This document shows, in pieces, positions 3,229 through 27,771 of a stretch of DNA of 57,189 nucleotides. The position numbers and the translations under genes were made by a program. The DNA comes from Deltaproteobacteria bacterium. GTDB taxonomy: Bacteria; Desulfobacterota; Syntrophobacteria; BM002. Location of the stretch: NCBI GenBank assembly GCA_022340905.1, contig JAJDNB010000027.1, forward strand, positions 1 to 57,189. Direction: 5' to 3'. The notes under the pieces were generated by a model. The model was not told the DNA's origin and made no database searches. It saw only the letters and a program-made list of their open reading frames with translations. How positions within the stretch are numbered: the first letter of the stretch is position 1; the number at the start of each line of letters is the position of its first letter.

Positions 3229-5879
3229 AAACTGCTGAGCTGAGAAAGGCATTTCTTGAATACTTCAAAATCAATGAGCACAGGATTGTAAAGAGTTCCT
3301 CCCTGGTACCACACGATGATCCCACCCTGCTTTTCACCACCGCAGGCATGGTTCAGTTCAAGCGACCTCTTCTCGGTGAAGAAAAGAGGGATTATGTACG
3401 GGCCACTTCCTGTCAAAAATGTATGCGCGCCGGGGGCAAACACAATGATTTGCGCAATGTTGGCCGTACTGCTCGGCACCACACCTTTTTCGAAATGTTA
3501 GGCAACTTTTCTTTCGGCGACTATTTCAAGAAGGAAGCCATACACTTCGGCTGGGAATTCTTCACTGATCACCTCAGGCTTCCCAAAGACAAACTCTATG
3601 CATCGGTTCACGAAGGCGACGAGGAAATGGGGCTGGGTGTCGACCAGGAAGCACTGGAAGAGTGGAACAAATACCTTCCACGAGAGAGAATCCTTACCCT
3701 GTCAACCAGTGAGAATTTCTGGGCCATGGGGGACATCGGTCCCTGCGGTCCCTGTTCCGAGATATTGATCGATCAGGGAGAGCACATGGCCTGCGGACCG
3801 AACTGTGCGCCCGGTGTGTGCGACTGCGACCGTTTTCTGGAATTGTGGAACCTGGTGTTTATGCAATTCAATCGCAAAGAAGACGGTACCATGGAACCGC
3901 TTCCCGCCCCTTCTATTGACACCGGTGCCGGCCTTGAACGAATTGCCGCCGTGCTTCAACAGGTGCCTTCCAACTATGATATTGACGTTTTTCAAGATAT
4001 CATCTCCGTCATTGAACAGCTCAGCAGCCACAGTCACGGAAAGGATGCAGAAAAGGACGTATCCATCAAAGTCATCGCAGACCATGGTCGTGCTGCTACT
4101 TTTCTTATCAGTGATGGAGTCATGCCCAGCAACGAGGGTCGTGGCTACGTTTTGCGGCGAGTCATTCGCAGGGCAGTAAGGCACGGCAGACTCCTCGGCA
4201 TCGACAAACCCTTTATGCACCAGGTGGCTGAAGGGGTAATTGCTGCCATGGTTGACACCTACCCGGATATTGCCAAAAACCGAAGCTACATCCAAATGGC
4301 CCTGAAGAACGAGGAGAAGTCCTTTAGCGCAACCCTTGACCGGGGGTTGGGAAAACTGCAAGAAGAGGTTGAAAAACTAAAAAAGGCCAGGAGCGATGTC
4401 TTTCCTGGTGAGGCCATCTTCAAGCTCTACGATACCTACGGTTTTCCCATCGATATCGTCATGGACCTGGCTCGAGACCAGGACTTCCAGGTAGATGAGA
4501 CCGGATTTGACCGGTTTATGGAGGAACAGAGGCAGCGTTCCCGGGCTGCCTTCAAGATCTCAGGGGTGATGGAAACCTCTGAGGCTCTCAAACAACTTAC
4601 AGCCAAGGGGATAACCACAACTTTCACCGGCCACGTCAGAACAGAGGACCAATCAGTGATTCTGGCTCTGCTCATCAAGGATGGCGCGGTAAACGAGGTA
4701 GGTGAAGGGCAGAGGGTCGAAGTAATTTGCGAGCACACTCCTTTTTATGGCGAAGCCGGTGGTCAAGTAGGGGATACTGGACGGATCAGTGGCATGGGTT
4801 TTACTCTGGAAGTTCAAGACACCCAAAAAACACCAGGTGATTTGCTCGTCCATGTTTGTAAAGTATTGCAGGGAACGGCTAGGGTGGGCGAAGAGGTTAC
4901 TCTGGCCGTAGACGAGGAAAAGCGCAAGGCCACCGAACGGAACCATACAGCAACTCACATACTCCACTATGTGCTCAGGAATATCCTGGGGGACCACGTA
5001 AAACAGCAGGGTTCTTACGTGGGGCCGGATTACTTTCGCTTCGATTTTTCCCACGGTGAAGCGCTGACCTCTGAACAGATTGCCACTATCGAAAAACTGG
5101 TCACCGAACATATTTTGGCCAACGAGGATCTCACCGATAAAGTAACCGATATGGATACAGCCATTACCGAAGGAGCCATGGCTCTCTTTGGCGAAAAGTA
5201 CGGCGATGAAGTGCGAATGGTTTCCATTGGCGACTATTCCAAAGAACTCTGCGGTGGGACCCACAGCCACCACACCGGCGACATTGGTCTTTTCAAAATA
5301 ATTGGAGAGAGTTCAGTGGCCGCCGGAATCCGACGTATCGAGGCTCTTACCGGGACTGGTGCGCTGGAATATATTCAGAATCAAGAAAAAACCCTAAGAG
5401 ATACGGCTGCGCTCCTGAGAACTGCACCTCAGGATTTGGCCGGGCGGGTACAAAGACTGCTGGCCCAGCACAAAGAGCTGGAAAAAGAAATAGAAAGGGT
5501 CAAAGCACAGGCTCTGAGCCAAAAGTTCGCCCCTATTGGTCAAGATATACGTGAGATCAATGGCCTGAAAGTACTCTCTCAGCAGGTGAATGTTGACAAT
5601 GCCAAGGATTTGCGGGTGATGCTTGACAACCTGAAGGACCAAATCAAGTCAGGGGTGATAGTGTTGGGCGCTGAGGCTGCAGATGGCAAGGCCATGCTCA
5701 TCTGCGGTGTAACGAGAGATCTTACCGACAAATATCACGCTGGTGAGATCATCAAGGAGCTTTCCGCCATGGTTGGAGGTAAGGGCGGCGGCAGACCGGA
5801 CATGGCCCAGGGTGGAGGCCCCCACGTTAACAAAATCAAGGAGGCTCTAGAGAGAGTGTTTGATATGGTCGAGCAATGA
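3225..5879 (+). CDS. alaS: Alanine--tRNA ligase
   Basis: An 884-residue, full-length alanyl-tRNA synthetase. The N-terminal class II catalytic core begins '[20 protein letters not shown]'. The editing domain has the zinc motifs HTATH and CGGTH, and the C-terminal DHHA1 domain ends with the glycine-rich '[15 protein letters not shown]'. It charges tRNA-Ala and hydrolyses mischarged tRNA. The start overlaps the recA stop by 4 bp. No terminator is obvious in the 160 bp that follow. Confidence 0.97.
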
Positions 5880-6003
5880 ATATAGTAGCTGTAATCTACA
5901 ACCCTTAAACCTCCCGCTTGAAATTCCATCCCCTAGTAGAATAGTCATATAAATTTGCCCACTTACTGTCCGCCAGTCTATGTTTCTTTACTATCTTTCG
6001 AAT

Positions 6004-6019
6004 TGGCACATTGCTTGCT
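6004..6019 (+). promoter_or_regulatory. Sigma-54 (-24/-12) promoter, perfect consensus
   Basis: TGGCACATTGCTTGCT matches the RpoN consensus TGGCAC-R-N4-TTGC-W at every defined position, with GG and GC exactly ten bases apart (GG 6005-6006, GC 6017-6018). Transcription would start near 6030, just ahead of the LtaS-like gene at 6042. The regulator and its enhancer site are not identified. Confidence 0.78.
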
Positions 6020-6041
6020 GTAGTCTCAATAGTCGGGGACA

Positions 6042-7976
6042 ATGATGGCAGGGTTTTTTACTTTTGCAGCTGTCACTGCGTTGGGACTCAAAAGTGGTAT
6101 TCCGGATAGTAATTCTATGAATTCTATCAGAATAATATTTGCGCGAGTATCAACATTCTTGCAGCATATGGAAAGAAGACAATGGTACAAAGTATCCTCT
6201 TTCGTGAGTCTTGTTTTGTTGCTCACTTTGATTATCGACATTCAAACATTCGGATACTCTCCCAAGATAATTGCATATACGTGGCTTATTTCTAGTTATA
6301 CGTTTTATCCACTTATGTTGCTTTCCTTGCTGATGCTATTTAGAAATAAAATCTCACCTGTGATAGAGCCTCTCGTCGTCATTGTTCTCTGGATATTTTC
6401 TCTCTGGTTTATAGCTTCTTCATACTTCTATATTGACCAGGGCCGCACCTTGCTATGGTATGAAATCAAGTTTTATTATTTTGAATCCGGCTATAGAGAC
6501 TACATGTTAGAGTTGCTGTTCTCCCGAAGGTTACTGATTTTTACTCTTTTGTTTGTTGGGGTATATTGGGGATTGCGTTTCTTGTATAGAAACTACGTCA
6601 AGGCAAAGGTCCTATTTTTTTGTACCATTCAAGTGATGGCAGCCGTCATGATATTGGGGGTAACTGAATCACAATCTACTATTCTCGGTCATGGCATACT
6701 CAGTTATTACTATGAACCGGCTAGTTCACCCTGGTCCATAGCACATAGGCCATACGCAGATGATGAGATTAGAGCATTTGATTTCAAAGTGGCTAGGAAG
6801 ATCAGGGAGACAGAGGGGAGTCCCTTCTGGGCAGATGGAGCCGATGAAAGGTTGGCTCCCCTCGCCGGCCGTTATCATGGGCGGTCTGTTATTGTGGTGC
6901 TGCTGGAATCTCACAGGGCTAGTGATGTTTCCGGCCTCGGAGAAGGAGCATTTCATCACCAGAATCTCTCTCCCACCATAACGAGATATATGAATGAAGG
7001 AATAACTTTTACCAATCATATAGCAGCAGGTAAAGGTACCTGGGCCGCCAGATGGAGTCTAATCACGGGGTTGAGCAATCCTCCGGGTGATACGCCACCT
7101 ATTCTCTTAAAGCCTGATGCAGGCAAGGTTGGGCGCATGCCGCAAATAAGGGAAAGTGGCTACGACTGTGTGCTGTTGTCGGCTGCCAACCCCCAATGGG
7201 ATAACTGGGGTCAAATCATAGCAGAGGCAGGATGCGAGTGGGGGCTCAATAGAAAACTTATGACTGGGGACGATGGCGTTTACAAAAGACACTTTGACTT
7301 TCGTGATGACCTGTTGTTTTCCACGGCTCTGAAAAAATACAAAGAGAGTGTTGATAATAATCGAGCTTCTTTCTTTATTATCCAAGCCTTAAGCAATCAT
7401 GAACCGTACACTTTTCCTTCCGAAATAGATGGAAAGAAAATACCTCATAATCATCAAGGAGGGATGCTATTTGTCGATTATGCTCTGGGTATTTTGCTGG
7501 ACGGCTTGAAAAAGTTACCCCAAGAAAAACAACCTGTTATCTTCATAACCTCTGATACTGCCAATGAAGAAGGGTTGGTGGCAGCAAAGGCACTCGGAGG
7601 AGGTGTATTGGAGGGGTTGCGTATACCGGGACTTCTTCTACTGCCTGATCGACAAATGGCTGGGGAAATATATGACGGCCTATTTTGCCATGAGGATATA
7701 CTCGATCTTATGTATCTCTTGACCTCTGCTGAATCTAAACCTCACATGAGGAAATTCTTGAAACGCCATAGGATTATAGCGCCTACTTGGAGAATGACCA
7801 TCCTTCTGACTCAATCAACTTGTTTTTCTGTAAAGACAGAAGATATATCTTATATAAAAGACACCTGGAAGCTGGAAGACACAGAAAACCCGCAGGAATT
7901 GAAATTACTTCTCGAGGCCAGGGACAGAATGTTCGATCAAGATAAGAAACTTTGGAATTCTCAAGATAACTCGTAG
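6042..7976 (+). CDS. LTA-synthase/sulfatase-family membrane phosphoglycerol transferase-like protein
   Basis: A 644-residue protein with about five hydrophobic helices up to roughly residue 220, then an extracytoplasmic alkaline-phosphatase-fold domain. The metal-binding start is 'VIVVLLESHRASDVSG', and the likely nucleophile is T333 in 'GKGTWAARWSLITGL', placed like the catalytic Thr of LtaS. A later 'FITSDTAN' replaces the usual DH-type metal motif and should be checked. Relatives move phosphoglycerol or phosphoethanolamine groups onto envelope polymers. The start is uncertain: ATG 6042 has GGGGA close upstream and fits the sigma-54 start site, but ATGs at 6117 and 6168 are alternatives. 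It is transcribed towards the minus-strand polysaccharide cluster. Confidence 0.8.
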   Translation: MMAGFFTFAAVTALGLKSGIPDSNSMNSIRIIFARVSTFLQHMERRQWYKVSSFVSLVLLLTLIIDIQTFGYSPKIIAYTWLISSYTFYPLMLLSLLMLFRNKISPVIEPLVVIVLWIFSLWFIASSYFYIDQGRTLLWYEIKFYYFESGYRDYMLELLFSRRLLIFTLLFVGVYWGLRFLYRNYVKAKVLFFCTIQVMAAVMILGVTESQSTILGHGILSYYYEPASSPWSIAHRPYADDEIRAFDFKVARKIRETEGSPFWADGADERLAPLAGRYHGRSVIVVLLESHRASDVSGLGEGAFHHQNLSPTITRYMNEGITFTNHIAAGKGTWAARWSLITGLSNPPGDTPPILLKPDAGKVGRMPQIRESGYDCVLLSAANPQWDNWGQIIAEAGCEWGLNRKLMTGDDGVYKRHFDFRDDLLFSTALKKYKESVDNNRASFFIIQALSNHEPYTFPSEIDGKKIPHNHQGGMLFVDYALGILLDGLKKLPQEKQPVIFITSDTANEEGLVAAKALGGGVLEGLRIPGLLLLPDRQMAGEIYDGLFCHEDILDLMYLLTSAESKPHMRKFLKRHRIIAPTWRMTILLTQSTCFSVKTEDISYIKDTWKLEDTENPQELKLLLEARDRMFDQDKKLWNSQDNS

Positions 7977-9142: not shown

Positions 9143-10156
9143 CTAGGGTTGGGATTCTTGGTGTTCTCTACGATGTTTACGGTAAGCAGGTTGCACGCCA
9201 AACCGAATGATACCCGTGCACAAGCCAGCAGTGCGGGCAATGCCTCTGAGAAAAGTAACACCAGCATAAGCGAAGGCCCCAACCTTTCCTTCTCCTAGCC
9301 ACCAGCTCATTGGCCAGGACAAATGAATGGCCGTATACGAACCGAGTAACACCAACAGCGGCCACATGGAGGCAGAAATGCCAAACATTGCCAAAAGTGC
9401 AGATGCAAAAATCCCCAGCACAATAATTGGCTCCAGTCTGTCTCGCAGCCTGGTGTAATCATCTCCGCGGACCATATCAGGATGGTCCTTGTAGAGCTTG
9501 GCTCGCCAGAATCCGTGACGGTACTGCTCCATCAAGTATTGCCAAACTCTCTCAGGGTGATAGTGCGCAACCTTGGCCTGAGGCCTGAAAGCTATGCGCC
9601 ACCCCATTCTACTGATCCTGTACGAAAGATCATTGTCCTCACCGCTGGCTTGGCGATAGTCTGCATCAAATCCGCCGGTGGCTTGCAGAACATAGAGTGG
9701 AATCGCCACATTATAGGAACCAAAAGCGCGAACAAAGGAGGGCATCCGCTTGTGTCTTTCGCTTATTTCCTGGTGTACCCATTGAGCCAACCATGAATTT
9801 GTGTTGGCTATAGCATAGCTGCCCGCCACTGCGCCTACTTGCCGGCCAGTAAAACCGTCAAGTAAATTTTCCAACCAGCCCGCCGCTGGAATACAGTCCG
9901 AATCAGTAAAACAAATGACCTGACCTGTGGCACGTTCCCAACCTCGATTGCGAGCCGCTGCAGGGCCAGCATTTTCCTGCCTTATCACCTTCGCCCCCGC
10001 TGACTCGGCAACCATTGCAGTATCGTCAATAGAGCCATCATCGACCACAACAACCTCAACTTCCATTGGCCCTTTTGCCTGGGCAAGACTTTGGGCCACG
10101 GCTTGACTAATGGTGTTCTCAGCATTGTATGCGGGGATGACCACGCTGACTTTCAT
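9143..10156 (-). CDS. GT2 glycosyltransferase with C-terminal membrane segments
   Basis: A 337-residue protein. The GT-A domain starts 'MKVSVVIPAYNAENTISQ' and contains 'VVVVDDGSIDDT', 'CFTDSDC' (metal/sugar-nucleotide DxD) and 'SGEDNDLSYRI'. Two or three hydrophobic helices lie between residues 245 and 315. It probably transfers a sugar on the inner face of the membrane. The first ~30 codons are about 88% identical (my hand alignment) to the truncated copy at 13415-13503. A sigma-54-like site lies about 100 bp upstream, and the DPM-type and DUF2304 genes follow closely, so the three may form an operon. Confidence 0.87.
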   Translation of the reverse strand: MKVSVVIPAYNAENTISQAVAQSLAQAKGPMEVEVVVVDDGSIDDTAMVAESAGAKVIRQENAGPAAARNRGWERATGQVICFTDSDCIPAAGWLENLLDGFTGRQVGAVAGSYAIANTNSWLAQWVHQEISERHKRMPSFVRAFGSYNVAIPLYVLQATGGFDADYRQASGEDNDLSYRISRMGWRIAFRPQAKVAHYHPERVWQYLMEQYRHGFWRAKLYKDHPDMVRGDDYTRLRDRLEPIIVLGIFASALLAMFGISASMWPLLVLLGSYTAIHLSWPMSWWLGEGKVGAFAYAGVTFLRGIARTAGLCTGIIRFGVQPAYRKHRREHQESQP

Positions 10157-10783: not shown

Positions 10784-13363
10784 ATGGGTGCTACGTTCTA
10801 CATTTATCTATCCTTATCACTCTTCGTCGTCAGTGTTTACCTATTCAGGAAAACAGGATCTACGACCAAAAATATACTCTTCTACACCATGGTCATTATT
10901 TCATTCACTTGTTATTTAATGTATGGGATATCAGATTACTTTACAGGAAATGGTATAGACGAATCTATTATCTTTTATCTTAAGTATGGTTTAGGCGGAG
11001 CCGGATTTACAGAATATTCAGATCTTATTTTTACATCCATTGTAATTATAATTCTTAGCTCAATGCTTTTAAGGTGGCTACTTGTTAGAAAAGGTAAAAG
11101 TAACTCTCATTGGATATTTAAGAAAAATATACCATACTTCCTTTTACTGTTATCTTTACTTTTAAATCCAGCAATGCCCGATGTTTACACCCTTCTTTCG
11201 GACAGGCCAGGAATTGTCCATGCAAGAGGGATCCACAAGGAAACAAAGACAACAACACCAAGTACCTCTGAATTTGCAAAGTTCTACCTAGAGCCATTTA
11301 TAGCAAAATTAACGAATGAGACTAAAAACTTGGTTGTCATATATGCTGAGGGATTGGAGGGGACATTTCTTGATGAAACCATTTTTCCAGGTTTGATTAC
11401 CGGGCTTCGCAAACTTGAATCGAAGAGTACTTATTTTACCAATATAAAACAGGTATCTGGAACTGGATGGACCATTGGAGGCATGGTAGCCAGTCAATGT
11501 GGCATTCCCTTATTTACGCCTTCCCATGGCAACTCAATGGCAGGCATGGATGTCTTTCTCCCTTCTGCAATCTGTCTCGGCGACCTATTGCACGATGAGG
11601 GCTACGACCTGACCTACTACGGAGGTGCTGATCTTGCCTATGCCGGAAAGGGTAAGTTCTATTCCACCCACAAATTTGATCACGTTGCCGGCAGGGAAGA
11701 GTTATTACCAGTCCTGGAAGACAAATCCTACGTTACTGGATGGGGGCTCTATGATGACTCACTATTTGATTTAGCTTACGAGCGTTTCATAGAGTTGTCA
11801 GACCGAGGCGGTAAATTTGGACTTTTCTTGCTAACCCTGGATACCCATCCTCCAAAGGGACACCCATCAAAAAGTTGTCAAGATAAAATATATAAAGATG
11901 GTTCAAACCCATTTCTGAATGCAGTAACTTGTTCCGACTATTTGATTACAGAATTTGTTCATAGAATTATGCAATCCCCATACGGTGAGAAGACAGTTGT
12001 TGTTGTGCTTTCAGATCATCTCGCCATGAGGAATACAGCCTCGCATCTTCTCCAGAAAAGTGAGAGGAAAAATCTTTTCATGATTATTGAGGCTAACGTG
12101 AACAAATCGACAAGAATACAGAAGCTAGGTTCAACTCTTGATATTGCCCCAACAATCTTACCTTTCATCGGCTACGACGGTGCCGTAGGATTGGGCAGAG
12201 ATCTTACTGATGCCAACCAACCAATCTCGGAAATTGAACATATACAGACGAATCTCCTCTCCTGGAAACCATCTATTTCTGACTTTTGGGATTTTCCAAG
12301 AATTCGTGAATTTGTAGAAGTAGATGTTACTAGAAATACCTTAAAAATTGATGACAGAAAATTCAATATTCCGGTGCTTGTCGAGTTAACCTCCGATTTA
12401 CAGACTACGCTAAAATTTCAATTTGACGCCTCCAAGGGGCAAAAAAAGCTAATTCATCATCTTCTGAGTCTAAATGAAAATAAACCGTTTCTATTAATTG
12501 ACCATTGTGCAAACCTTAGCATATTAGACGAAAAATTGGGACAAACTGGGTTTTGTTTAATTGCAGGTGAACGTGATAAATATATAAAAAAAATAAAACT
12601 TTATGGAAAAGTTAAATTTACTTGTGATGATATACGTGAGTTCACAGGAATCGTGGCTAACTTCCGGACACTGAGGGTTGCACATGCTGGCGGCGCAATC
12701 AACGGAAAAACATATACAAATAGCCTTGAGGCTTTGGACTATAATCTAAAAAATGGATTTTTATACTTTGAGTTGGATTTTAGCTTTACACAAGACAGGC
12801 GATTAGTATGCATACATGACTGGAAACAACATTTTAAAACCACTTTCGGTTTTTTGCCAAAGGAAAAGCCGACTCTGGAGGCTTTTGAATCTCTTGTTAA
12901 GAATAAATCTGAGCTCAAACAATGTACTCTTGAGACCTTGGCTAACTGGATGAAACAAAATACATGCGCATTTATTATTACTGATATCAAAGAGGATAAT
13001 CTCTATGGATTAAAATTAATTTCTGAATACATTCCGGAATTCAAAACAAGAATTATACCGCAAATTTATGATCCCAATAATTATAACAAGGTCAAAAGTA
13101 TGGGATATAAGCAAATTATATGGACGCTTTATAATTATGAAGGATCCAATGACGATGTTCTTAAATGGTCCGATAAATTTAACGGGCCTTTTGCTATTAC
13201 AATGCCCAAAGGTCGCGCGGTATCTGACTTACCGAGAAAATTAGCAGATAAGCATATTCCTACTTACGTTCATACCATAAACACATTAGAGCAAATGAAT
13301 GAATTTATTAACGACTTTGGCATAACTGAAATTTACACTGATTCCCTGCCCGCAGAAAGCTGA
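10784..13363 (+). CDS. OpgB-like phosphoglycerol transferase fused to a GDPD-like domain
   Basis: An 859-residue protein. Residues 1-560 follow E. coli OpgB (MdoB) closely: membrane helices, then 'SDYFTGNGIDE', 'VVIYAEGLEGTF', 'GTGWTIGGMVASQCGIPLF' (likely nucleophile T230) and 'VVLSDHLAMRNTA'. OpgB transfers phosphoglycerol from phosphatidylglycerol to periplasmic glucans. After residue ~630 there is a second domain absent from OpgB: 'AHAGGAINGKTYTNSLEAL' (H634), 'FELDFSF' (E663, D665) and 'CIHDW' (H678). This is the layout of glycerophosphodiester phosphodiesterases, but with HAG in place of HRG. The gene is more A+T-rich than its neighbours and runs against the surrounding minus-strand cluster, suggesting acquisition. 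The ribosome site is weak. No opgG or opgH is in the window, so the acceptor may be a different glycan. Confidence 0.85.
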   Translation: MGATFYIYLSLSLFVVSVYLFRKTGSTTKNILFYTMVIISFTCYLMYGISDYFTGNGIDESIIFYLKYGLGGAGFTEYSDLIFTSIVIIILSSMLLRWLLVRKGKSNSHWIFKKNIPYFLLLLSLLLNPAMPDVYTLLSDRPGIVHARGIHKETKTTTPSTSEFAKFYLEPFIAKLTNETKNLVVIYAEGLEGTFLDETIFPGLITGLRKLESKSTYFTNIKQVSGTGWTIGGMVASQCGIPLFTPSHGNSMAGMDVFLPSAICLGDLLHDEGYDLTYYGGADLAYAGKGKFYSTHKFDHVAGREELLPVLEDKSYVTGWGLYDDSLFDLAYERFIELSDRGGKFGLFLLTLDTHPPKGHPSKSCQDKIYKDGSNPFLNAVTCSDYLITEFVHRIMQSPYGEKTVVVVLSDHLAMRNTASHLLQKSERKNLFMIIEANVNKSTRIQKLGSTLDIAPTILPFIGYDGAVGLGRDLTDANQPISEIEHIQTNLLSWKPSISDFWDFPRIREFVEVDVTRNTLKIDDRKFNIPVLVELTSDLQTTLKFQFDASKGQKKLIHHLLSLNENKPFLLIDHCANLSILDEKLGQTGFCLIAGERDKYIKKIKLYGKVKFTCDDIREFTGIVANFRTLRVAHAGGAINGKTYTNSLEALDYNLKNGFLYFELDFSFTQDRRLVCIHDWKQHFKTTFGFLPKEKPTLEAFESLVKNKSELKQCTLETLANWMKQNTCAFIITDIKEDNLYGLKLISEYIPEFKTRIIPQIYDPNNYNKVKSMGYKQIIWTLYNYEGSNDDVLKWSDKFNGPFAITMPKGRAVSDLPRKLADKHIPTYVHTINTLEQMNEFINDFGITEIYTDSLPAES

Positions 13364-13414
13364 AATGAGACCAATATCATTGTAGATTGCCTAATTGGGC
13401 ACGTAACCCAAAAT

Positions 13415-13503
13415 GACTCTCTTGCTTGGTCAAGACTTTGAGCCACGGTTTGACAAATGGTGTTCTCAGCATTGTATGCGGGGATGATTACGCAGACCTT
13501 CAT
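13415..13503 (-). pseudogene. 5' stump of a GT2 glycosyltransferase gene
   Basis: The first ~29 codons read 'MKVCVIIPAYNAENTICQ', matching the start of the intact GT2 gene at 9143-10156 at about 88% of bases by my hand alignment. Similarity then stops and no GT2 domain follows. The ATG (13503) overlaps the stop of the upstream GT4 gene as ATGA, so an intact coupled GT2 gene once stood here. It was cut off by the event that brought in the sequence now carrying the opgB-like gene. Confidence 0.8.
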
Positions 13504-14630
13504 GGAACCACCTTTTCTAGATATGCAACAAAGCCTTCTACTAAGCGAGGCCAGGAAAAAGCCCTTTTCACAAATTCCTGCCCTCTCCTCGAATTGTCCA
13601 GGTCTTGCCGAATCAGGGCCTGTCGGATGGCACTGGGGAACTCCTCTATGGTGGAACACAACGTCACGTAATCTTTGAAAAGCTCAGCGTCTCCCACCCT
13701 ATTGCAAACAACGCTAAGCCCGGCGGCCAGATACTCTCTTATCTTAATGGAAGCTCTGCACTGATTTGCCCAGGTTGGGGCCATGTAGTTGATCCCCACC
13801 CGCGCCAGTTTGAGGATGCCTGGCATATCACCATGCGGGATATAGCCAGTCAAGATTATACGTTCCTGCAAACCGTATGCCTCGATCTGTTTGACATAAG
13901 ATTGCCTGTGCGTACCGTCTCCGATAACCAGAATCTTGATATCAGCACTGCTCCTGAGAAAATCCACGAGCATCGGGAAAATATGTAGAAAATCACTGGT
14001 GATTCCCAGGGAAGCACAATAAACAATCACTTGATCGTCTGGATTAATACCCCACTTTTCCCGATAACGCTCGTCCGGTCGAGCTTTAAGGAATTTTCTA
14101 ACCTCTACCCCTTGAGGCAAAAAATAGATTTTTCCCGGGGCGATTCGGAGTTCGTTGATGATAAAGTCCCTCAAATTTTTGTTATGAGTGGTAATAACAT
14201 CAAAATGACGTGGGAATAATCTAAAAAAAAGGCGCACTAGCTTCCGCCGCAGATCATCAGGGTAGTATTCGAAATCCAAATCATCAATGTCCACTATGAT
14301 TTTGCATTTGCTGATTTTCTTTATGACTAATGTGGGGAGACAGGTATTGGGCATTGGCTTCAAGACAAACACATAGTCTGGACGAAAAACCAATCCATGG
14401 AGGCAATTTAACAAAGTAGCACGGAAGATATCCAGCCAGAGGAACCCGGTTTCAACCGTGGAACGATATCTTATCCCATCTCTTTCTGATCTGCCATTCT
14501 TTGCAATGGAGCGCTCCAAAAAACACAAGGCATGCCCCTCACGGGCCAGTTCTCTAGCTATGCTCCAGAACCTAACGCCACTGCCGCTTTGCTCTGTGAG
14601 CGCGTTCAGCATGAGAATTTTCACTGGCAT
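13500..14630 (-). CDS. GT4 glycosyltransferase
   Basis: A 376-residue GT-B enzyme starting 'MPVKILMLNALTEQSGSG'. The acceptor-side half is followed by 'VIVYCASLGITSDF', and the donor half has 'ILTGYIPHGDMPGILKLARVG' and 'IKIREYLAAGLSVV', the retaining GT4 E-x7-E-like region. The frame is open for 57 more codons upstream, but that stretch would overlap the neighbouring gene. The ATG at 14630 is preceded by AAGGA, so I use it. It works in the cytoplasm on a nucleotide-sugar donor; the sugar is unknown. Confidence 0.88.
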   Translation of the reverse strand: MPVKILMLNALTEQSGSGVRFWSIARELAREGHALCFLERSIAKNGRSERDGIRYRSTVETGFLWLDIFRATLLNCLHGLVFRPDYVFVLKPMPNTCLPTLVIKKISKCKIIVDIDDLDFEYYPDDLRRKLVRLFFRLFPRHFDVITTHNKNLRDFIINELRIAPGKIYFLPQGVEVRKFLKARPDERYREKWGINPDDQVIVYCASLGITSDFLHIFPMLVDFLRSSADIKILVIGDGTHRQSYVKQIEAYGLQERIILTGYIPHGDMPGILKLARVGINYMAPTWANQCRASIKIREYLAAGLSVVCNRVGDAELFKDYVTLCSTIEEFPSAIRQALIRQDLDNSRRGQEFVKRAFSWPRLVEGFVAYLEKVVP

Positions 14631-17163: not shown

Positions 17164-18132
17164 TCATTTGTAGGTTAACAGTTCATAGGCAGCAGCAGGG
17201 TTGGGCATGGAGTCGCCAGAGTAAATCTTTTCAAACCCAAATAGATTCAGTATCTTTAGTGCGTTTTTCAGATCTTGAGCACTTATCTGCTCTCGCCAGC
17301 TATCAATAAGACTAGTTCCCTTTACGATTGCACTATCTTCCCGACTCATCGATGATGGTGTTCTCAAGTTGCTGAGTACTTTCTCATCAAATTTCTTGCC
17401 AAGAAAACCGAACAATCTCTCAATTTCTTCGTATGGATTTTCGCAGAATTTTTCATAGAAACATAAGTGAATTTCTCCCTGTTTGAATTGCCTCAAGGGA
17501 ACATAATTCAGCATGCACCAAATGAAGACGTGTTTTTCAAACTCACTCTGGGCTTGCTCTATGGGCCCTCGAAACGGTTCTAGGTAATCTAGCACTAGCT
17601 CTTCCTGAGATAGGCAGGCTTCAATATCTGTTCTGCTCCCACGTTCTTCTTGGCCCCACCCGAGCTTCATCCAAGAATTTGCTACAGCGCAAGGATGCCT
17701 GAAAAGGAGAATGATTGGGATTCCTGGAAAATTGCTATGAATCCATTTTAACAAGAGATTGGCACGAATGTCCTTTATGAGCCTTTTCCGGGCGAATATT
17801 TTCTTGTTAGCTACGTCTGTCCACCTGTCTCTCACCCGCCCTGAGAGCACGGCTTTCGCCGGTACCAGGTAGCGCGATTCACAATTCTCCGGTCGCAAAT
17901 ATTGTTTGTATTGGAAGTCTCTAACCAGCCCCACTCTGTTCGGATTAAAAGGTTCATGTATGAATCTGTACTCACGATTATAATTAATGATGTCGGCAAT
18001 CCAGGTCGTGCCGCTGCGACCAACTCCTGCAAGAAAAACCGTATTCTTATGATCGTGGTTTAGCTCGCATGGAAAAGTACTTGCCATAATGTTAATTAAA
18101 ATTTTAATAATATTATTTTCTATAATCTTCAT
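17164..18132 (-). CDS. Sulfotransferase family protein
   Basis: A 322-residue P-loop protein. The 5'-phosphosulfate loop GVGRSGTTW is at residues 36-44, and the 3'-phosphate motif appears in 'LLFRHPCAVANSWMKLG' (R, then S). PAPS-dependent sulfotransferases of this type sulfate carbohydrate or lipid hydroxyls in the cytoplasm. The neighbouring glycosyltransferases and sulfotransferase suggest the substrate is the cluster's glycan. The sequence is A+T-rich, as are the next two genes. A start at the ATG 15 codons in is possible. The 197 bp before it are very A+T-rich, with nothing recognisable. Confidence 0.85.
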   Translation of the reverse strand: MKIIENNIIKILINIMASTFPCELNHDHKNTVFLAGVGRSGTTWIADIINYNREYRFIHEPFNPNRVGLVRDFQYKQYLRPENCESRYLVPAKAVLSGRVRDRWTDVANKKIFARKRLIKDIRANLLLKWIHSNFPGIPIILLFRHPCAVANSWMKLGWGQEERGSRTDIEACLSQEELVLDYLEPFRGPIEQAQSEFEKHVFIWCMLNYVPLRQFKQGEIHLCFYEKFCENPYEEIERLFGFLGKKFDEKVLSNLRTPSSMSREDSAIVKGTSLIDSWREQISAQDLKNALKILNLFGFEKIYSGDSMPNPAAAYELLTYK

Positions 18133-25977: not shown

Positions 25978-26827
25978 AAAGTAAAGTACCTCTTGTCTTC
26001 GACTTGGAGACTGCTAGGAGAACCCTTCGTCTGAGTTCACTCGGTAAGAAAGCGAAACCTGCCAATGAGATCCTCTTGATTTTCTGCTTCAACTGAGCTG
26101 AACTCAGTCTCTCATATCGTCTAAAAAGGTTTACCAAATAGGGGTTTGTATAGTCCAAATGGTGCGGCTGAATTCCCCCTTTAAACACTAACTCAGCACC
26201 CAGAGTTGCGAATGCAATCCTCCGGTCATTAGTCCGTAAAAAGTTTAGCCACGTCTTCTGAAGATTTTCCCAATGGTCACGGGATGCTTGCACGTGCAGC
26301 TCTGCACGCCCAGGCTGGATAACCTTCAACCCTCTGTGCACACCGTAGTGAAAACTCTGGAACGGTGATGGGTCTTTGCAATGGACTGCTGCAGGAGCTA
26401 ACTCTGAATCGTCTAGGATTACCTCGTCATGCTTCCCAGGATAATCATCAACAAAAAGATGTTCCTCGTTCCGGCTCCACCTCACCGTGTTTCGATACGT
26501 GTGCATTCCCCAAATCAATTGATCAGAAAAAAAATCATGAACGGCAATTATCAAATCCTTCAGCCAAGCCGTCATATTAAACTTGTCTACTATCCTCGCG
26601 AACAGATGTTTGTTCTCGATCACCATGTCCGCGTCCACTTTCATAAACAGATCAAACTCATCAGCCCCCTCCATAAAGGTTTGATAGAGCCTTTCATGGG
26701 CCTCCTTATTTGGCAGATTTTTGAGAACAAAATTCTCAAAATTAGTGTAAGTCTGTTGCCTGATTCCTGCCAGACATTGTTCAAATTCATTTTCAATAGT
26801 GTACAAGGTTCCTACTAATATTTTCAT
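25967..26827 (-). CDS. GT-A-fold glycosyltransferase-like protein
   Basis: A 286-residue protein beginning 'MKILVGTLYTIENEFEQCLAGI', with 'YTNFENFVLKNLPNKEAHERLY' and an acidic 'FMKVDADMVI' that fits a GT-A metal site. It looks like a divergent GT2 enzyme. The ATG overlaps the stop of the upstream sulfotransferase-like gene (ATGA), so transfer and sulfation may be coupled. The C-terminus is basic. I do not recognise a characterised relative. Confidence 0.65.
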   Translation of the reverse strand: MKILVGTLYTIENEFEQCLAGIRQQTYTNFENFVLKNLPNKEAHERLYQTFMEGADEFDLFMKVDADMVIENKHLFARIVDKFNMTAWLKDLIIAVHDFFSDQLIWGMHTYRNTVRWSRNEEHLFVDDYPGKHDEVILDDSELAPAAVHCKDPSPFQSFHYGVHRGLKVIQPGRAELHVQASRDHWENLQKTWLNFLRTNDRRIAFATLGAELVFKGGIQPHHLDYTNPYLVNLFRRYERLSSAQLKQKIKRISLAGFAFLPSELRRRVLLAVSKSKTRGTLLFDS

Positions 26828-27639
26828 GCACGAATTCCCGCAAATTCTGGTACATTTAATTTACTAATAACCTCGGAGATTTCTTTTTCTAAATTGTGAA
26901 AATTAACTGACATATAGGGTAAACCGTTATCAGTTGTTTTGACATTTATCTTTTCTTTTCGGTTCAAAAAATATCTCATCCAAGCCAAAGGACCGGGGCG
27001 CGGCAGATTTAGCTGTCTTACCATACGTCTGAAACTTCTTAATGATTTGATGTCATCCAGCGAAATTTTGGCAATATGTGCATTTTTTTCCCGCAGAATA
27101 TGTTCATAATATATGCTTCTCCGTTTTATCTCGAGACAATACCAGTAACATAACTGATAATCATGTAAAGACTCCCAGTTAGGAAGTGAAAGTACTCCAG
27201 GGTCTTCAGGGCTGAGATAATATTTCAGCCCCTTTTCTGTACGCCCCGGAATAGTGCCCAAGCGGAGCATGCTTTTCGCTACATCACGGTCGGGTCTGGT
27301 CAGTATAATCAAGTCGGGAATAATATCCATATCCAGCAAGGGCTCAATGAATCCTTTACAAAAGAGATGACTCGTCTCAATGTAGATCGGTGCGTTCTCG
27401 TTTGCTATCTGTGGCAACTTTTTATCCATCCAGAATTTGACGGCGATTGTCTTATCTTTTTGAGCCCAACGCATAACATTGGAGAATCTTGGCTCTGGCT
27501 CGTGGCAGCTATGAACATACGGTATGAAGCTTAACATCTCAGCTAAATAGCCAGTACCGCTCCGGCCTGTTGTTACGGTAAAAATTAATCTTTTTTCCTG
27601 TATATTAGATTTGATTATACTGGTGAGTTCAGATGACAT
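26824..27639 (-). CDS. Sulfotransferase-like P-loop protein
   Basis: A 271-residue protein. The PAPS loop TTGRSGTGY is at residues 23-31, and the 3'-phosphate region reads 'LIILTRPDRDVAKSMLRLG'. It shares 'YLAEML', 'CHEPEP' and 'ETSHLFCKGF' with the gene at 28730-29545, so the two are paralogues. The ATG at 27639 is used because GAGGA lies five bases upstream; the longer frame begins with TTG. It is probably a cytoplasmic sulfotransferase acting on the cluster's glycan. Confidence 0.75.
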   Translation of the reverse strand: MSSELTSIIKSNIQEKRLIFTVTTGRSGTGYLAEMLSFIPYVHSCHEPEPRFSNVMRWAQKDKTIAVKFWMDKKLPQIANENAPIYIETSHLFCKGFIEPLLDMDIIPDLIILTRPDRDVAKSMLRLGTIPGRTEKGLKYYLSPEDPGVLSLPNWESLHDYQLCYWYCLEIKRRSIYYEHILREKNAHIAKISLDDIKSLRSFRRMVRQLNLPRPGPLAWMRYFLNRKEKINVKTTDNGLPYMSVNFHNLEKEISEVISKLNVPEFAGIRA

Positions 27640-27771
27640 TCTTTTCCTCGCCAATGGCTTGGCAACAATCTGTTGCGTTACAAATTTGCCATTAGTGAAA
27701 CGGTGACCTGGAAGATCATTCTAGAAATCTCCTTAAAAGTTAGGGCAGCCTAACCTATTAAAGCTACTCCT

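Follow-up and report, generated by a model that had tools for sequence, protein, structure and literature searches.

A predicted OpgB-type phosphoglycerol transferase fused to a GDPD-like domain, a candidate writer/eraser of glycerophosphate in a deltaproteobacterium

A single deltaproteobacterial gene combines an OpgB/LtaS-type phosphoglycerol transferase with a GDPD-like domain. The encoded fusion may be anchored in the membrane, face the periplasm and act as a writer/eraser of glycerophosphate on a surface glycan, a reading to which a probability of roughly 55% is given. Such a bifunctional device for addition and removal is the best reading because both domains are real, possess the expected active-site residues, would be extracytoplasmic and belong to a pairing maintained in evolution. 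Both domains come from known superfamilies; the interest lies in the recurrent writer/eraser pairing and in the subfamily of the GDPD-like half, in which HAG stands in place of the classical HRG.

The gene was found in the window, i.e. the whole stretch of 57,189 nt that was analysed. As the original prediction held, it encodes one polypeptide and not two joined genes, with an uninterrupted 859-aa frame exactly at 10784-13363 (+). Its features are as follows.

10784..13363 (+): whole ORF, 859 aa, in which an OpgB/LtaS-type phosphoglycerol transferase precedes a GDPD-like domain
10784..11266 (+): aa 1-161, membrane part at the N-terminus, ~4 hydrophobic helices (AlphaFold helices and sequence hydrophobicity)
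11324..12166 (+): aa 181-461, catalytic domain of the alkaline phosphatase superfamily (aligned with LtaP 4uop and LtaS-family 2w8d)
12167..12649 (+): aa 462-622, beta-rich region common to OpgB
12674..13348 (+): aa 631-855, GDPD-like domain with a (beta/alpha)8 fold, HAG subfamily (profiles, AlphaFold and Foldseek)
12683..12685 (+): H634, putative catalytic His at the position of the HRG His; the next residue is A635 (Arg in canonical GDPDs)
12770..12778 (+): E663 and D665, putative metal ligands (residue conservation)
12815..12817 (+): H678, putative second catalytic His (residue conservation)
12983..12985 (+): D734, putative third metal ligand (register from profile-profile alignment)

The gene is AT-rich, with a GC content of 38.7% in the OpgB part and 36.0% in the GDPD part, against 47.8% in the window, which is consistent with horizontal acquisition.

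The transferase half (aa 1-622) is clearly related to OpgB. The NCBIfam OpgB model matches aa 8-599 (E 2.7e-129) with 432 bits, below the equivalog cut-off of 574 above which the same function is implied. Pfam Sulfatase (PF00884) matches aa 263-463 (E 1.1e-23), and BLASTP aligns aa 9-632 with E. coli K-12 OpgB at 34% identity. The claim that this part follows OpgB motif by motif was right in kind, but among the three motifs quoted only GMVASQCGIPLF is identical to the letter; SDYFTGNGI and SDHLAMRNTA read SDYFTGDGI and SDHLAMNNTA in E. coli OpgB, one letter different in each. Alignment places the likely metal and nucleophile residues E189, T230, H355, D411 and H412 in register with LtaP/LtaS, and the first four are near-invariant in the transferase alignment. 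The protein thus has the Glu, the Thr nucleophile and the Asp-His metal ligands that mark the LtaS-like superfamily. Its profile also matches LtaP 4uop (1e-37) and LtaS 2w5q (3.5e-28). Among OpgB, LtaS, LtaP and GacH, OpgB is closest to the transferase of the window; the glycerophosphate transferases LtaS, LtaP and GacH share its catalytic domain but are not fused to a GDPD.

AlphaFold predicts N-terminal helices at residues 3-23, 27-54, 75-101 and 111-126. Since about four hydrophobic N-terminal helices also occur in OpgB and LtaS, both domains of the fusion are placed in the periplasm, and by analogy with these two enzymes the protein would have an inner-membrane topology. E. coli OpgB (MdoB; NF003000, PRK03776), phosphoglycerol transferase I/II, resembles the fusion in its membrane part, its catalytic residues and its beta-rich extension. 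Its C-terminus differs and consists of DUF7024 (aa 616-759) at the position of the GDPD domain of the fusion; the statement that OpgB lacks the GDPD part is therefore true. At the E. coli OpgB locus (L132, 17151-19442), DUF7024 fills the slot of the GDPD-like domain, indicating that this C-terminal slot is modular.

The GDPD-like half (aa 631-855) is best recognized at the level of its family. For this sequence, the match to Pfam GDPD (PF03009) is weak and partial (E 3e-4 with the full protein, 1.1e-5 with the domain alone). All 40 relatives in the family alignment match this model individually at E <= 0.01, the family profile aligns with solved GDPDs across positions 20-229 of 232 (E 9e-15), and hhalign of the HAG family with classical controls gives a probability of 99.3. 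The GDPD layout predicted for the last ~225 residues, with H634, E663, D665 and H678, is borne out by these profiles and by the TIM-barrel prediction. The modelling that had been proposed for the C-terminal region yields a confident (beta/alpha)8-type AlphaFold model (pLDDT 95.9, pTM 0.92), the best Foldseek matches of which are GDPDs: that of T. tengcongensis (E 1.8e-10, TM 0.71) and B. subtilis GlpQ. Judging from alignment register, H634, H678, E663, D665 and D734 would lie in one pocket. The domain belongs to a distinct, exported and probably catalytic subfamily of GDPDs tied to OpgB/LtaS/GacH-type enzymes. This subfamily may correspond to cd08583. Literature searches for this name or for a transferase-GDPD fusion returned nothing on point.

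HAG members share the fold, the two catalytic His and the three acidic metal ligands with GlpQ, UgpQ and other classical GDPDs (PF03009). Conservation over 87 sequences is complete for H634, D665 and D734 (87/87 each) and nearly so for E663 and H678 (86/87 each). Differences concern five features. The position after the first catalytic His is Arg in 23/23 classical GDPD controls and Ala in 85/86 relatives, a count favoured by the genome-scan pattern, which had AHA as one of two alternatives. With A635, the protein of the window lacks the Arg that defines classical HRG GDPDs and GlpQ. In BsGlpQ this Arg of HRG is Arg44, which holds the phosphate among other residues (PMC7086022). At the third metal ligand the HAG subfamily has Asp, the register of D734 coming from profile-profile alignment, whereas classical controls mostly have Glu (18/23; Asp in 3/23). 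Two extra residues, absent from classical GDPDs, occur in the loop after strand 1. The position of H830 is His in 57/86 relatives, where most controls have the Trp of WTxN. Finally, HAG members are linked to transferases and classical GDPDs are not. The original prediction saw in HAG for HRG a hint of altered chemistry; the substitution is real, but it is a trait of the whole subfamily and not a local sign of odd chemistry. Decay of this one gene is likewise ruled out as its cause. The N-terminus is hydrophobic in 56/67 unfused relatives, 12 of which show a lipobox pattern; this agrees with an extracytoplasmic placement of both predicted domains of the fusion.

The same two-domain order, which was to be sought in other genomes, does recur. 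When 84,980 genomes were scanned with only the C-terminal profile, 212 relatives were confirmed, and the best 80 of them were retained. Among these 80, all found with the C-terminal domain only, 15 are fused to a transferase. One of them, from a Desulfobacteraceae MAG (L021), is the same fusion with 855 aa, 63% identical over 838 aa. Fusion hosts belong to Thermodesulfobacteriota, Zixibacteria, Gammaproteobacteria, Rhodobacterales, Patescibacteria-type candidate phyla, Spirochaetales, Myxococcota and Bacteroidota, and a separate phylum scan added one more fusion (L012/L016). In several fusions (L042, L045, L046, L074, L091, L096 and L016), from Rhodobacterales, Spirochaetales and Bacteroidota, ~300-400 aa of unassigned sequence separate the transferase and GDPD-like domains. 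A separate transferase-superfamily gene lies within 1.5 kb at 17 further loci of the best 80 of 212, with some overlaps of 1-4 bp; in L022 and L043, the unfused GDPD-like and transferase genes overlap by 4 bp and are translationally coupled.

Overall, a transferase-superfamily frame is fused or within 1.5 kb at 32/80 HAG-type loci (best 80 of 212) versus 0/31 classical GDPD loci (Fisher p=3.7e-6), a somewhat optimistic contrast, with controls from the phylum of the window only and a transferase profile grown on the test loci. Around the 31 classical control loci, no transferase frame was found within 1.5 kb even at E<=10. In the 4.1-Mb genome that carries the fusion, PF00884 matches only two genes, the fusion and the gene at 6042-7976, so chance linkage is expected at <1% per locus. 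The other 48/80 HAG loci (best 80 of 212) have no transferase gene within 1.5 kb, indicating that the domain also works alone.

Among the transferases neighbouring HAG loci are OpgB-like, LtaS-like and GacH-like ones, and one HAG domain adjoins a TagF-like poly(glycerophosphate) polymerase. A different partner class is seen in Sulfurovum and Vibrio, where HAG GDPD genes lie beside CptA/EptA-like phosphoethanolamine transferase genes (L086 at 4110-6657, L090, and L092, assigned to this class by its grouping with L090 on the transferase tree). The link is thus not strictly to glycerophosphate. In Alcanivoracaceae/Lysobacterales (L033, L036, L038, L040 and L083), the HAG GDPD gene stands beside a patatin-like phospholipase gene on the opposite strand, which hints at a lipid context there, and a DUF5916 protein also adjoins it in 4/5 of these loci. 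No single common neighbour was found for HAG loci without a transferase; their neighbours are mixed and comprise patatin (Alcanivoracaceae), metallophosphoesterase (Paenibacillus), sugar transferases and TagF. A search of phages with the C-terminal domain gave no match, and a phage origin of the domain was rejected. In plasmids, the same search gave only two distant matches, 29% identical.

The history of the pairing can be followed in part. On a tree of 40 transferase domains, which gives no direction (gain versus loss) and contains some unsure long branches, the fused/separate label changes eight times, at least six of these changes being forced by supported branches. The pairing has therefore been made or broken repeatedly. 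A sister-genus relative (G014) has a 623-aa transferase without the GDPD half and with a stop codon at the junction. No GDPD remnant was found downstream of it; the only match near the gene end is to its own last residues (E 0.03). In a same-genus relative (G008), the region is syntenic, with neighbour genes 80-93% identical, and the contig ends inside the transferase, before the junction.

The fusion gene is part of a polysaccharide locus of the ABC-transporter type, which comprises Wzm-like and Wzt-like genes together with numerous glycosyltransferases as well as sulfotransferase-like genes. MdoG/OpgG (PF04349) was not found in the same genome, which is ~94% complete, while the E. coli control was positive. 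Because of this result and the polysaccharide locus with Wzt, an E. coli-type OPG is unlikely as the acceptor. From the locus, the acceptor is probably the exported polysaccharide or its core. Two sulfotransferase-like genes within the Wzm/Wzt locus, at 17164-18132 and 26824-27654 (-), the second below the Pfam cut-off, suggest that this surface polysaccharide may be sulfated. Three kb from the fusion, the gene at 6042-7976 (+) encodes a second, divergent alkaline-phosphatase-superfamily (LtaS-like) membrane protein of 644 aa, which matches no NCBIfam model. Directly downstream of the fusion, at 13333-13659 (-) with a core at ~13420-13503, a truncated glycosyltransferase-2 start, MKVCVIIPAYNAENTICQTVAQSLDQA, was read by eye. 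It resembles a disrupted copy of the intact gene at 9143-10156 (MKVSVVIPAYNAENTISQAVAQSL), as if the region had been rearranged around the fusion gene.

A plausible course of the reaction relies on what is established for each family. In E. coli, OpgB uses phosphatidylglycerol as the donor of phosphoglycerol for glucans, and its soluble form passes this group from one glucan to another (PMC3818809). GDPDs form a cyclic phosphate by way of the glycerol 2-OH and then hydrolyse it, two His having separate roles (PMC10404611). In the fusion, the OpgB/LtaS-type half would take sn-glycerol-1-phosphate from phosphatidylglycerol via the Thr nucleophile and pass it to a hydroxyl of the glycan that the polysaccharide locus around the gene produces. 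The GDPD-like half would then follow the two-step route on glycerophosphodiesters in that glycan. The glycerol 2-OH would attack phosphorus to form cyclic glycerophosphate, which would become glycerophosphate, and a free glycan hydroxyl would be released. The glycerophosphate decoration would thereby be trimmed, edited or recycled.

Several observations speak against this writer/eraser reading. The Arg that contacts phosphate in BsGlpQ is Ala here, which could mean another substrate, another reaction step or a loss of hydrolysis. A transferase and a hydrolase in one chain risk a futile cycle unless they are regulated or regiospecific. Moreover, the sister-genus relative lacks the GDPD half, 48/80 HAG loci (best 80 of 212) have no transferase within 1.5 kb, and a few neighbours are CptA/EptA-like. 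The replaced Arg also speaks for a non-hydrolytic domain, one that binds the glycerophospho-glycan or stops at the cyclic phosphate as a cyclase or transferase, positioning the acceptor or setting chain length. The Asp found as third metal ligand in 87/87 sequences points the same way, as does DUF7024, the presence of which at this position in E. coli OpgB suggests an accessory role for the occupant of the slot. This account is nevertheless unlikely, since both catalytic His and the three acidic ligands, unneeded for pure binding, are near-invariant over 87 diverse sequences, and the HAG domain also occurs as a stand-alone exported protein.

It is rather improbable that the target of the GDPD-like domain is a lipid or a free by-product and that the domain clears lysophosphatidylglycerol or glycerophosphodiesters near the transferase for phospholipid recycling, like S. 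aureus LpgD. LpgD structures are among the Foldseek matches of the domain, and the NCBIfam lysophosphatidylglycerol phospholipase D model matches 10/40 relatives (best E 2.7e-6), but general GDPD models fit HAG members at least as well. LpgD is a membrane-tethered exported GDPD, as here, and the best mechanistic model for the GDPD-like half, but it has canonical active-site residues and is a separate protein (PMC10404611). Furthermore, such transferases produce diacylglycerol and not a lysolipid, and many unfused relatives resemble lipoproteins or secreted proteins and adjoin glycan-modifying transferases or polysaccharide genes. An accident without functional meaning (frame error, chimeric contig or recent joining) would fit the lone transferase of G014, the contig of G008 that ends before the junction and the low GC of the gene (36-39% versus 48% in the window). 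It is extremely improbable, given active sites kept in both domains and the same domain order in Desulfobacteraceae, Zixibacteria, Gammaproteobacteria, Patescibacteria, Spirochaetales, Bacteroidota and others. A frame error near codon 600 or a chimeric contig is excluded by the full-length fusion in L021 and other independent assemblies.

The writer/eraser reading has a stereochemical corollary. The glycerol phosphate that transferases such as LtaS, GacH and OpgB attach to bacterial surfaces comes from phosphatidylglycerol and is the sn-1 stereoisomer. B. subtilis GlpQ acts on sn-glycero-3-phosphoryl ends only and not on the sn-1 units installed by phosphatidylglycerol-dependent transferases (PMC7086022). 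A literature search for an enzyme that removes sn-1 glycerophosphate decorations found no known one. Any GDPD that partners an OpgB/LtaS enzyme has to deal with the sn-1 isomer, and it is the phosphate-binding Arg that has changed in the HAG subfamily, a suggestive sign of sn-1 specificity; hence the tentative and somewhat doubtful proposal that HAG GDPDs are dedicated sn-glycerol-1-phosphodiesterase erasers, which have the opposite stereospecificity to GlpQ and have many times become fused to, or encoded together with, OpgB/LtaS/GacH-type writers. If this is true, the HAG subfamily would be a candidate lipoteichoic-acid-type or OPG-type depolymerase, and it is in any case a directly testable candidate for the removal of sn-1 glycerophosphate decorations. 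Such an eraser would provide a tool to strip or read glycerophosphate marks on teichoic acids and glycans. The pairing across many phyla points to an uncharacterised system that adds and removes glycerol-phosphate decorations.
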